From Nitrospira sp. (GTDB lineage: Bacteria > Nitrospirota > Nitrospiria > Nitrospirales > Nitrospiraceae), in NCBI GenBank assembly GCA_003135435.1, contig PLBR01000088.1, positions 1 to 54,638 of the forward strand: 54,638 nucleotides of DNA, written 5' to 3'. Positions 3,654-46,127 of this stretch are shown in pieces. Below the pieces are notes generated by a model. That model had not been told where the DNA came from, made no database searches, and saw only the letters and a list, made by a program, of their open reading frames with translations. How positions within the stretch are numbered: position 1 is the first letter of the stretch; each line of letters begins with the position of its first letter. A program made the translations under genes and the position numbers.

Positions 3654-4838
3654 ATGATCAACGTCGCACTGTTGCCGGCGCTCCATTCGCATTTGGCCTG
3701 GTGGGGTCTCCGGCAGTTCACGTCGGACGAGGCCTACTTTCAGTGGCAGCGGGAGACCCTCTCGCCTGCGGAACTCACAACACTGCATCGGCAGGTGGAG
3801 CAGAAGCGTCGCGGATCGTCTGCCGACGAGGTAGTGTTTTACAATGCCACCACCGATCCACACATCCTGCCGGTTCTCTACAGTCAACGGTATGACTATT
3901 ATCTGGCCATCGGCCTGCGCGTGGCAGCTCGCATCGGTGAGGGCCGCTCAATTCTAGATGTGGGCTGCGGCGTCGGCATCCTCACGACGTTCTACGCGAG
4001 GCAGTATCCTGACAAGACTTTCGTCGGGATCGATCGATCACCTGCCTCAATCGCGCGCGCGCAAGAATACGCGAAGGTACTTGGCCTGACCAACGTGCAG
4101 TTTGAATGCCTCGATCTCGATGAAACGCCTCCCACTTGCTCCTCTGATCTGATCCTCGCCACGCATGCCCTCGTGCAAGCTGAACAGGACCCGGGCATTC
4201 CCAGTCGCTGTTGGAACACCTTCGAGCGTGCCGGCGAGAGCCAGCCGCAAGCAGACTTTGAGCGTCGAACGGGGATCGGTACCAGGCTCGATCGTTTGAG
4301 CGCCCTGCTTTCTGCACAAGGACGCATGGTCGTGTTTGAGAAAACCCGTCAGTTGGCAAGACGAATCCCGCTGCAGCGCGCCTTGGCTGCACGAGATCTT
4401 GGTCTGATCGAGCAGCCGGAATTAATTCGATACCGTCTAGTCGAAGAAATTGCCGACGATGGACCCTTCTATCTGTTGGGGAGGGGAAAGTCGTACCAGC
4501 TTCACTGGGATGAATCCCCGGAGCCAGACGAAGGGGGTCCGTTCGATCGAGCGAAGCTGAAAACTAGTTCAACCGATTCGGACGCGCCGCTCTACGAGAA
4601 CCATTGGCCTTCCGCGCAACGCGTCTGGGAACAGCTGCACGAGAAGCATCTCCTCAAGGAGGCCACGCGCCAGGAGCCAGACGGCCGCCAGTTGCATGTT
4701 GAGCTCGGGCAGGCAGAGGAGGGGGTCTATCTGTATTGCGCTAACACCTTGGATCAACGCCAGTTGGTGATTGTCGAACTAGCCCGCACGGTCATGCTGG
4801 AGGCCTATTATCAGGAGATTGTGAGCGGTGCGCCCTAG
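3654..4838 (+). CDS. Class I SAM-dependent methyltransferase
   Basis: Motif I 'ILDVGCGVGILTTFYARQYPDKTFVGIDRS'; ATG at 3654 preferred over TTG at 3627, which lies in the upstream repeat. Confidence 0.75.
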   Translation: MINVALLPALHSHLAWWGLRQFTSDEAYFQWQRETLSPAELTTLHRQVEQKRRGSSADEVVFYNATTDPHILPVLYSQRYDYYLAIGLRVAARIGEGRSILDVGCGVGILTTFYARQYPDKTFVGIDRSPASIARAQEYAKVLGLTNVQFECLDLDETPPTCSSDLILATHALVQAEQDPGIPSRCWNTFERAGESQPQADFERRTGIGTRLDRLSALLSAQGRMVVFEKTRQLARRIPLQRALAARDLGLIEQPELIRYRLVEEIADDGPFYLLGRGKSYQLHWDESPEPDEGGPFDRAKLKTSSTDSDAPLYENHWPSAQRVWEQLHEKHLLKEATRQEPDGRQLHVELGQAEEGVYLYCANTLDQRQLVIVELARTVMLEAYYQEIVSGAP

Positions 4839-5000
4839 TAGGATGCTGAAAAAGTCGCTCTTCTCACCCGCCCGACCCCGGCGCGCCGAGACGCGCCTTT
4901 TCCCATGCGTCATTCTCGCATCGTTCAGGGCCTCAACGTACCCCAGAGGGTACGCCTTCACTCGCTGCGGCCTTGCTGACAGCCTTTTTGAGCATCCCGC
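4839..5000. repeat. Palindromic intergenic element (core module)
   Basis: TAGGATGCTGAAAAAGTCG ... CCTTTTTGAGCATCCCGC; internal AACGTACCCCAGAGGGTACGC. Confidence 0.85.
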
Positions 5001-11626: not shown

Positions 11627-11831
11627 CAGGCTGCGGAAAAACTATTGTGACACGCGAGAACTTCGAGGGTCCGTACGTGTGGCACACCAGGAGAACACTC
11701 CCGCAGGATGCTCAAAAAGACCGTTCAGCAAGACCGCAGCGAGTGAAGGCCCGAGGCGTACCCTCTGGGGTACGTTGAGGGTCTGAACGATGCGAGAACG
11801 AAGCTGGCGGACTTTTTCAGCATCCTGCTAA
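11624..11831. repeat. Composite palindromic intergenic element (outer arm plus core)
   Basis: TAGCAGGCTGCGGAAAAACTAT ... GAACTTCGAGGGTCCGTACGTGTGGCACACCAG ... CAGGATGCTCAAAAAGACC ... CTTTTTCAGCATCCTGCTAA; TAG is the preceding gene's stop. Confidence 0.85.
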
Positions 11832-17029: not shown

Positions 17030-17232
17030 CAGGCTGAGAAGAACCATTTCGGCCCAGTAGGACTTCGAGGACCTGCGTGTCTGTGACAAAGAGAGAGCAC
17101 CCAGCAGGATGCTCAAAAAGGCCGTCCAGCAAGGCCGCAGCGAGCGAAGAGGCGAGTCGTACTTTGTGTCGTACGTCGAGCCTCTGAGCGAAGCGAGAAC
17201 GAAGCTGGCGGACTTTTTCAGCATCATGCTAG
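17027..17232. repeat. Composite palindromic intergenic element
   Basis: TAGCAGGCTGAGAAGAACCATTTCGG ... CAGGATGCTCAAAAAGGCC ... CTTTTTCAGCATCATGCTA; TAG is the stop of the ATPase gene. Confidence 0.85.
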
Positions 17233-21131: not shown

Positions 21132-21384
21132 TTAGCAGGTGCGGAAAAACTATGTTGTCACGCGAGAGCTTCTATGGTTCGCACAGATGGCACAATGGGA
21201 AAACACCAGGTAGGATGCTCAAAAAGGCCGGACTTCTCACCCGCCCAACCCCGGCGCGCCGAGACGCGCCTTGTCCCAAGCAAGGCCGCAGCTCTATGGC
21301 TGACCCTCGTTTCACGTCTTACCTTTCACGGTTTTTGAAAGCAAAGCGAGAACGCCGCTGGCGGACTTTTTCAGCATCCTGCAA
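21132..21384. repeat. Composite palindromic intergenic element (chimeric)
   Basis: TAGCAGGTGCGGAAAAACTATG ... CACCCGCCCAACCCCGGCGCGCCGAGACGCGCC ... CGTTTCACGTCTTACCTTTCACGG ... CTTTTTCAGCATCCTGC. Confidence 0.8.
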
Positions 21385-42810: not shown

Positions 42811-43013
42811 ATCAGGATGCTGAAAAAGTCCGCCAGCGGCGTTCTCGCATCGTTCAGACCCTCAACGTACCCCAGAGGGTACGCCTCGGGCCTTCACTCG
42901 CTGCGGCCTTGCCGGACGGCCTTTTTGAGCATCCTGTGGGGTGTTCCCTCTGTGCCACACGTACGGACCCTCGAAGTTCTCGCGCGCAAACATAGTACCT
43001 GCGCAGCCTGCTA
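42811..43013. repeat. Composite palindromic intergenic element
   Basis: CAGGATGCTGAAAAAGTCCGCCAGC ... CTCAACGTACCCCAGAGGGTACGCCTCGG ... GGCCTTTTTGAGCATCCTG plus outer arm to GCGCAGCCTGCTAG. Confidence 0.9.
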
Positions 43014-43821: not shown

Positions 43822-44028
43822 CCTGGCAGAATGCTGAAAAATCTCGCCAGCGGCGTTCTCGCATCGCTCAGAGGCTCACCATACCGAAGCGTACGCCTCG
43901 CCTCTTCACTCGCTGCGGCCTTGCTGGACGACATTTTTGAGCATCCTGCGGATTATTCAGGCGCTATCGCCATTCGTAAAATCACAGCGGCACATTGAGT
44001 AAAGCCGAGTTTTCCCGCAACCTGCTAG
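43822..44028. repeat. Palindromic intergenic element with degraded outer arm
   Basis: GCAGAATGCTGAAAAATCTCGCCAGC ... ACATTTTTGAGCATCCTGC ... TTTTCCCGCAACCTGCTAG. Confidence 0.75.
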
Positions 44029-44057: not shown

Positions 44058-45125
44058 TCAGCCGCCACGAGCGTGCATTTCGAGATGTGGGTCTTCACGA
44101 AGTTTCTCAATACCGATGAGTCCCCCGACACGCAATCCGTCCCGCTCGAGCGCCTTACGCTCTTCTGCGCCTCGGTCGCGGCGGCCTTCCCAGCCGGCAC
44201 GGATCACGGTCCGCATCTCCTCCGCGGAAGCACCGGCGCGGAGAGGCTTACGAAGATCCGTTCCCGTCGTCGCGTACAGACAGCGGTACCACATGCCGTC
44301 GGCGGTGACCCGGCTGCGATCGCAGGTCGCACAGAACGGCGTAGTCGTCGAAGGAATGATCCCAAAGGTCGTCCCATCCGGCAACAGATATCGCTGTGCC
44401 GGCGCAGCCCCCCGCTCAGGCATTGGCTCGATCGTCCCATAGTGCTTGCTCAGCATTGTGAGCATCGCCACTCGGGAAAATACTTCTTGTTGAGACCATT
44501 CGTTTGCGCCACCGACGTCCATATATTCGATAAACCGAACTTCCGCCTGCACATGCTTGCCAAATTCGATCAGCGCGACCAACTCATCGTCATTGAAACC
44601 CCGAATCACCACTGTATCGAGTTTCAAGCCGGTGAATCCCGCCCGAACCACCGACTCAATCCCTTCCAACACGCGCGCATACTCATCACGGCGGGTCAGT
44701 TGGCGAAATCGTTCCGGTCTCAGCGTATCGAGGCTGACTGTGACGCGGTGAAGCCCTGCCTCATACAGCGCCTCTGCCTGGTCCGCCAGAAGAATGCCAT
44801 TCGTCGTCAGCGCGATATCCGTCACCCGCCGATTTTGGAGCAACAGGCGAATCAGCCGAGGCAAATCGCGTCGAAGCAACGGCTCTCCGCCGGTCAGCCG
44901 CACGCGATCGACGCCGAGGTCGGTGAAATAGCTCGTCAGGCCTGCCATTTCCTCATGGGTCAGCAGATCCTCGCGCGGCAACCAGACATAGTCCTGCTCC
45001 GGCATGCAGTACTTGCAACGGAGATTGCATCGATCCGTCACGGACAAACGCAAGCTCCGCAACGGCCGGCCAAAGGCATCGGCAGCGGGAAAAAGAGAGG
45101 TACTTGTTGGTAACTGATCAGCCAA
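44058..45125 (-). CDS. moaA: GTP 3',8-cyclase MoaA
   Basis: 'LRLSVTDRCNLRCKYCMPEQDYVWLPREDLLTHEEM', 'VRLTGGEPLLRRDLPRLI'. Confidence 0.95.
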   Translation of the reverse strand: MADQLPTSTSLFPAADAFGRPLRSLRLSVTDRCNLRCKYCMPEQDYVWLPREDLLTHEEMAGLTSYFTDLGVDRVRLTGGEPLLRRDLPRLIRLLLQNRRVTDIALTTNGILLADQAEALYEAGLHRVTVSLDTLRPERFRQLTRRDEYARVLEGIESVVRAGFTGLKLDTVVIRGFNDDELVALIEFGKHVQAEVRFIEYMDVGGANEWSQQEVFSRVAMLTMLSKHYGTIEPMPERGAAPAQRYLLPDGTTFGIIPSTTTPFCATCDRSRVTADGMWYRCLYATTGTDLRKPLRAGASAEEMRTVIRAGWEGRRDRGAEERKALERDGLRVGGLIGIEKLREDPHLEMHARGG

Positions 45126-45165: not shown

Positions 45166-45618
45166 CTAGGGATGTTCCTCCACCCAGACTTCGCCTTCCG
45201 GCGTATGTTCGAGTTTCCAGATCGGCGTGATTCGTTTCAATTCATCGATCGCCCACGTGCAGGCACGAAACGCTTCCGCTCGGTGCTCAGCCCCCACAAC
45301 AATCAGCACGATGTTTTCGCCGATGCCGATTTCGCCATACCGGTGGAGGATCGCCACCTCGATGATGTCAAAGTCCTTCAACGCCCGTTCGCGGATCTCG
45401 CGGAGCGTCTTCTGCGCCATGCCCTCGTAATGCTCGAACGTAATGCGATCCACATCCCGCCCCTTCGACCGGTCGCGCGCCGTCCCGAGAAAAATCGAAA
45501 TGCCGCCGATGCGCTTCGACCGACCCCGCACCCGATTGATCTCCGCATCCACGGAGAAATCCTCCCGTTGCACGCGGACAAACTTGGCATCGTCACCGGC
45601 AGGCTGCTGCATACTCAT
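45166..45618 (-). CDS. moaE: Molybdopterin synthase large subunit MoaE
   Basis: 'GGISIFLGTARDRSKGRDVDRITFEHYEGMAQKTLREI', 'IVVGAEHRAEAFRACTWAIDELKRITPIWKLE'. Confidence 0.9.
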   Translation of the reverse strand: MSMQQPAGDDAKFVRVQREDFSVDAEINRVRGRSKRIGGISIFLGTARDRSKGRDVDRITFEHYEGMAQKTLREIRERALKDFDIIEVAILHRYGEIGIGENIVLIVVGAEHRAEAFRACTWAIDELKRITPIWKLEHTPEGEVWVEEHP

Positions 45619-45666
45619 CTTTGTTCCTCTTAACTAGCGCGATCCACAGCCAACGAGTAAGTAGCC

Positions 45667-45837
45667 CGCAGGATGTTCAAACAGGCCAGACTTCTCACCC
45701 GCCCAACCCTGGTGCGCCGAGACGCACCTTGTCCCCAGCAAGGCCGCAACGAGCGAAGAGGCGAAGCGTACGCTTCGGTACGTTGAACCTCTGAGCGACG
45801 CGAGAACGAAGTTGGCGGACTGTTTCAACATCCTGCC
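45667..45837. repeat. Palindromic intergenic element abutting the moaD 3' end
   Basis: GCAGGATGTTCAAACAGGCC ... CACCCGCCCAACCCTGGTGCGCCGAGACGCACC ... CTGTTTCAACATCCTG. Confidence 0.85.
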
Positions 45838-46127
45838 GAGGCTCCACCGGCGAAGGGAGGTAACAGGGCTACCTCGTCGCCATCCTGAATCGTCGTATCT
45901 TCGTGCGCGATTTCTTGATTGACCGAGACGAGGACTTTTTTCTTCTGAATCAGTTCTCCGATGGCGGGGTATCCAGTTTCTAGCACACCGACGAGGTCTT
46001 TCACCCGTCTTCCATTGACGAGGTTCAGGGACAAGGTTCCCTGATTCCCCGCCAACATCTTCGTCATCCCAAAGAGGCGAACCGTGATCACGCAGTATCC
46101 TTTACCAGTTCCTTGAACCTGACTCAT
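45825..46127 (-). CDS. moaD: MoaD/ThiS family sulfur carrier, C-terminal extended
   Basis: 100 aa; 'LVSVNQEIAHEDTTIQDGDEVALLPPFAGGASAGC'; GG followed by five residues, stop codon inside the repeat. Confidence 0.85.
   Translation of the reverse strand: MSQVQGTGKGYCVITVRLFGMTKMLAGNQGTLSLNLVNGRRVKDLVGVLETGYPAIGELIQKKKVLVSVNQEIAHEDTTIQDGDEVALLPPFAGGASAGC

Follow-up and report, generated by a model that had tools for sequence, protein, structure and literature searches.

The moaD gene studied here encodes a MoaD in which the conserved Gly-Gly is followed by five further residues, and the locus raises the question of how these residues arose and whether such a protein can still serve in molybdenum cofactor (Moco) synthesis. 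The window, meaning the whole stretch of 54,638 nucleotides that was analyzed, belongs to a draft Nitrospira sp. genome of 254 contigs (G000). Domain scans of the window recover the gene order moaC-moaD-element-moaE-moaA, with the following features:

46128..46619, minus strand: moaC (Pfam MoaC, 190 bits), abutting moaD
45825..46127, minus strand: moaD, 100 aa, ending ..LLPPFAGG-ASAGC-stop (Pfam ThiS 54.9 bits, NCBIfam moaD 46 bits, and translation)
45843..45848, minus strand: conserved Gly-Gly codons, the C-terminus in canonical MoaD and the putative processing site here (translation and alignment)
45837..45842, minus strand: Ala-Ser codons left over from the MoaD-MoaE linker (Ala-Pro or Ala-Ala in fused relatives; linker alignment)
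45825..45836, minus strand: codons for Ala-Gly-Cys and the stop, which are part of the element's terminal inverted repeat
45668..45836, minus strand: 169-bp repeat element in the former linker, with inverted ends at 45668-45687 and 45817-45836
45619..45667, minus strand: 49-nt spacer with Shine-Dalgarno-like AAGAGGAACAAAG just before the moaE ATG, absent in fused relatives and homologous to the spacer of genome G025
45166..45618, minus strand: moaE, 150 aa, the sole MoaE of the genome (Pfam MoaE, 122.6 bits)
44058..45125, minus strand: moaA (Pfam Radical_SAM 119 bits and Mob_synth_C 116 bits)

Translation of the minus strand from 45848 to 45825 (GGT GGA GCC TCG GCA GGA TGT TGA) yields G G A S A G C stop, with GGT GGA at 45848-45843, GCC TCG at 45842-45837, and GCA GGA TGT TGA at 45836-45825; this confirms the frame LLPPFAGG-ASAGC-stop, and the placement of its last three codons and stop within the terminal repeat, as proposed in an initial sequence-only reading. 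The ubiquitin-like ThiS/MoaD domain is present (residues 16-95 in the Pfam ThiS match), and the best model for the protein is NCBIfam moaD, though the score falls under the cut-off (46 vs. 66). In alignment, the solved MoaD chains 1fm0_D and 2q5w_D have the aligned Gly-Gly exactly as their last residues; the five residues ASAGC are therefore extra relative to canonical MoaD. As Gly-Gly is not at the very C-terminus of the encoded window protein but is followed by ASAGC and a stop, the product is a MoaD precursor at most. The MoaE partner is encoded beside it, as a separate ORF rather than in one reading frame with MoaD.

The element has 20-nt inverted ends that are 90% complementary, and its strand, taken with short flanks, folds far better than shuffled sequences (z −4.65). 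The window contains 11 occurrences of the 17-mer GCAGGATGTTGAAACAG and its near variants, as compared with 0.1 expected, and a blast search of the genome with the 169-bp element gives 43 matches. Additional copies in the window lie at 4838-5000, 11703-11828, 17104-17229, 21213-21382, 42812-42934, and 43826-43927. Most copies in the genome read CTAG-CAGGATGCTGAAAAAG...CTTTTTGAGCATCCTG, although the moaD copy lacks the preceding CTAG; many run on for about 80 nt to ...AGTTTTTCCGCAGCCTGCTAG, and the full element may therefore be longer. The window repeat resembles REP/MITE-like palindromic repeats (PMC3733652) in being short, multicopy, non-coding, and bounded by inverted ends, but differs in that its moaD copy interrupts a coding linker. 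Querying G000, G020, G021, and G025 for the 49-nt flank as part of the repeat did not identify a further copy; an 8-nt flank match in G021 most plausibly reflects the chance proximity of another repeat copy. Neither this repeat family nor a MoaD-MoaE fusion in Nitrospira was the subject of any paper found in literature searches.

The window MoaD was searched in 32 congeneric genomes, its own included, and the junction with MoaE was readable at 26 loci. At 22 of these, MoaD, Gly-Gly, a linker of about 11 residues, and MoaE form a single ORF with no stop after Gly-Gly. In the nearest relatives, the junction is LLPPFAGG-APMDQVSDDAR-FVRVQREDF in G020 and LLPPFAGG-AAMDQVNDDAQ-FVRVQREDF in G021; in the window it is LLPPFAGG-ASAGC-stop, followed by MSMQQPAGDDAK-FVRVQREDF 218 bases past the Ser codon. 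The sequence-only reading had supposed that insertion of the element removed an original stop codon, a view that repeat-free relatives with a comparable extension would contradict. Close relatives without the repeat, at 95% nucleotide identity, do carry residues past Gly-Gly, and in a stronger form than anticipated, running straight into a fused MoaE in one frame. Because the fused gene had no stop after Gly-Gly, the insertion created a stop rather than removing one.

The one-ORF form is the commonest across the family (178 genomes; most of the 175 with a match) and spans many genera; N. moscoviensis (L086) and an N. lenta genome (L122) both have it. Other classes of the phylum also have fused genes, whose linkers span 9 to 84 nt. 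Several order-level relatives carry split genes. Linker DNA was compared at 165 loci, a set that was later extended, giving 114 distinct fused and 44 distinct split genes. Fused linkers measure 30 or 33 nt in 81 of the 114 (mostly 10 or 11 residues); those within the genus of the window are homologous and mostly 33 nt long (xPMDQxxDDxQ). Gly-Gly is followed by a small residue (Ser, Ala, Thr, Cys, or Gly) in 110 of the 114 fused genes, and the third codon after Gly-Gly is ATG in 41 of them, such that MoaE may also arise by internal initiation and fused genes may release some free MoaE. In such fused genes, with the linkers of L004 and L048 as examples, GGN-GGN just upstream of the ATG can be read as a Shine-Dalgarno sequence (e.g., GGAGGAGCACCAATG). 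AlphaFold2 modeling of a fused relative (16 sequences; mean pLDDT 58) recovered the MoaD domain well; we make no structural claim, as the linker and much of MoaE were modeled poorly.

Gene phylogenies bear on the direction of change. A tree built from 158 distinct moaD+moaE pairs, spacer excluded, groups the window gene with eight fused genes in a nine-row clade; in this tree, every early-branching genus of the family is fused. A second tree, carefully built from 28 rows, places the fused gene of G021 (L005) as its sister (99/95) and that of G020 (L004) next (96/92), and grouping of the window gene with the other gene bearing an ASAGC-like tail (L022) is rejected (p-AU 3e-7). Sliding identity between the window gene and its relatives showed no break near the junction that would mark a recombination tract. 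The nesting among fused genes, together with the fused early-branching genera, makes the fused state the likely ancestral one in the lineage of the window. These placements and the homology of the fused linkers support descent of the window gene from a fused gene, with some doubt left by the spacer common to G025.

We regard it as probable that a MoaX-type MoaD-MoaE fusion gene was split by a repeat in its linker, and that the resulting MoaD is trimmed after Gly-Gly, likely by a JAMM peptidase. As the sequence shows, the 169-bp repeat and the adjoining 49 nt keep the two domains apart and give MoaD its TGA stop and the tail ASAGC; MoaE has a start and a ribosome-binding site (RBS) of its own, from which it is presumably translated in the window.

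The same arrangement recurs. A repeat of this family lies 5-8 nt past Gly-Gly, in the same orientation, in 15 of the 44 distinct split genes (14 other sampled genomes): three in the genus of the window, two in genus g16, one in g9, and nine in g14. The resulting MoaD tails are ASAGC, APAGC, SEGC, SDGC, SDGW, SAGC, or M; where the reading frame does not meet the TGA, they are longer. Mapped on the gene tree, the repeat label requires 13 changes, at least 10 of them forced by well-supported branches; these are label changes, not counts of insertions. The elements of G000 and G025 agree at 158 of 169 positions (93.5%), while the best other full-length copy in G000 reaches 83%. Their 49-nt spacers are 67% identical (33/49), and agree outside the RBS at 19 of 32 positions, a match equaled by 13 of 200,000 shuffles; the moaD-moaE genes of the two genomes, however, are not sisters (p-AU 3e-7). 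Because element and spacer are shared while the gene trees stand apart, one simple insertion per lineage is insufficient, and the history must include either spacer exchange among lineages or a split allele of long standing.

This shared spacer, extending beyond the repeat, also speaks for an alternative in which the split gene with its element came first, the fused genes arose by repeated deletions that removed the spacer as far as the moaE ATG, and trimming is ancestral for some other reason. The frequent GG-x-x-Met of fused linkers (41/114) would then look like a retained start codon. Split genes in several order-level relatives are compatible with this order of events, as is the gene of G069 (L221), a re-fused MoaD-MoaE with a 75-nt linker and no stop inside the otherwise split g14 clade. 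However, independent deletions would not yield the homologous, mostly 33-nt linkers found within the genus; fusion is also the state of the family's early-branching genera, of other classes of the phylum, and of the nearest and next-nearest relatives of the window gene. We therefore consider an older split state unlikely.

The tail of the window MoaD can be compared with those of other split genes. Among the 44 distinct split MoaDs, 42 keep 1-56 residues after Gly-Gly (31 keep 1-7), and two stop at Gly-Gly; the residue that follows is Ser in 25, Asn in eight, Ala in five, and Thr in two. Across these sequences, burial of Gly-Gly is the rule in this phylum. The two genes with a stop directly after Gly-Gly, L173 (G124) and L176 (G125), share one other genus code and are not close to the window gene on the tree. 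Both read GGT TAG AT ATG, with moaE starting 2 nt on, a junction that resembles a fused linker broken by small changes. A stop after Gly-Gly is only a few mutations away yet rare, which suggests that a tail costs little, as would be expected if an enzyme cutting after Gly-Gly were present.

The sequence-only reading had offered two options, proteolytic trimming or use of another MoaD, and had pointed to a JAMM-type peptidase as the enzyme to look for. The genome does encode a JAMM protein, with an intact metal-site motif, outside the window and about 17 kb from moaD (G000:C128, about 62845-63358). It scores 58 bits against Prok-JAB, aligns with 2kks and 2kcq, and contains the expected metal site (Glu plus H-x-H-P...S-x-x-D) as YECCGLL and HSHPHDPARPSITD, with HSHP-x5-PS-xx-D intact. 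Its neighbors are a ThiF protein, a PLP-synthase-like protein, and a CysO-like carrier ending PAIAGG. The JAMM gene (G000:C128:62639-63458; L044:12640-13460) has copies of the family of the 169-bp repeat on both flanks, and its TAG stop is part of the CTAG ahead of the downstream repeat (gcgacCTAGCAGGATGCTG). JAMM matches occur in 176 of the 178 family genomes (163 above Pfam's cut-off), and with nearly all genomes matching, no correlation of JAMM presence with the fused or split state could be obtained. Given this near-universal distribution and the adjacent CysO-like cluster, the main substrate of the JAMM protein may be a protein other than MoaD.

Other ThiS/MoaD-family carriers in G000 also have residues past Gly-Gly (..IGGGAEELRH, ..VISGGSPRFTPHVSRLTSQE, and ..GMGGTGLGPSM, at C94:38683-38919, C219:39642-39917, and C177 [L002:1462-1734]), which fits a general trimming activity. 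By analogy with MoaX and DR2607, the ancestral fusion would have needed a cut after Gly-Gly to work, and we infer that the cell hence already had an enzyme cutting there. That enzyme, probably the JAMM protein, would also remove the short tail of the window MoaD, and the trimmed MoaD-GG would then be adenylated and thiocarboxylated and work with MoaE. The trimming requirement of the window MoaD is thus probably inherited from the fusion, and a retained Gly-Gly-cutting enzyme would explain the near-absence of split lineages with a stop at Gly-Gly.

Even less probable than an older split state is a tail that stays in place, leaving the window MoaD poorly active or inactive, with Moco made through another carrier, e.g., one ending PAIAGG or CALSGG. 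Further ThiS/MoaD-family proteins are indeed present, and two end exactly at Gly-Gly, but the only MoaE of the genome adjoins the window moaD, and the MoaD domain is 94% identical to that of a fused relative, with Gly-Gly intact and no signs of decay. Additionally, the PAIAGG carrier lies in the ThiF/PLP-synthase-like/JAMM cluster, suggesting another sulfur pathway, and mycobacterial CysO behaved unlike MoaD1 or MoaD2 in an E. coli assay (PMC3227635). The single MoaE and five above-cutoff matches to the molybdopterin oxidoreductase family indicate that the window MoaD-MoaE pair is most likely in use. Between the two options first offered, trimming is thus the best reading, and replacement by another MoaD is the weaker.

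It is very improbable that the window MoaD was a free-standing protein that once stopped after Gly-Gly and lost its stop to the repeat; the present stop does fall within the repeat, but near relatives are all fused, no close relative stops after Gly-Gly, and that form appears only in the two genomes of the other genus code, neither of which is a near neighbor on the tree. An assembly error at a multicopy repeat, conceivable in a draft genome with so many matches to the element, can practically be dismissed, as the 49-nt flank occurs once in the genome and is homologous to that of the independent genome G025, and the same arrangement is found in single-contig genomes such as G048.

Beyond this locus, we lean slightly toward the broader proposal that JAMM maturation of the MoaD C-terminus is normal in Nitrospirota, such that a mobile repeat can settle more than once, in one orientation, directly after the cleavage site of a MoaD-MoaE precursor, turning a protease-processed fusion into two genes and leaving the buried Gly-Gly unrepaired. 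In the literature cited here, MoaD-MoaE fusions are those of the M. tuberculosis complex and Deinococcus; across the Nitrospira family, they are the commonest form. This family includes the main nitrite oxidizers, whose key enzyme needs the molybdenum cofactor. Natural split MoaDs with tails of 0 to 56 residues provide a ready series for the requirements of the maturing protease, and the presence of a repeat at the processing site in the linker illustrates how a fusion can be undone without evident loss of function. For annotation, a Gly-Gly that is not C-terminal is no evidence of a broken MoaD in this phylum.

Several known systems offer comparisons. In sulfur carriers of the QbsE/QbsD type, a JAMM peptidase removes a few residues after Gly-Gly and thereby frees it; there, the tail belongs to the normal gene of the carrier, whereas the window tail consists of linker remnant and repeat DNA. 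In D. radiodurans, the JAMM peptidase DRJAMM (DR0402) cleaves the MoaD-MoaE fusion DR2607 (PMC8832034). The window genome likewise has a JAMM protein with an intact motif, and its close relatives have the fusion; the window gene differs in being split, and the activity of the Nitrospira JAMM is predicted from that of DRJAMM. The M. tuberculosis fusion MoaX (Rv3323c) is cut between Gly82 and Ser83, a cut required for its action, by a mycobacterial protease left unidentified in that study (PMC4326299); MoaX was not processed in E. coli (PMC3227635). Fused Nitrospira relatives have the same MoaD-GG-MoaE order and internal Gly-Gly, often followed by Ser; in the window, by contrast, the fusion has been split at the DNA level by a repeat, leaving MoaD with a five-residue tail.
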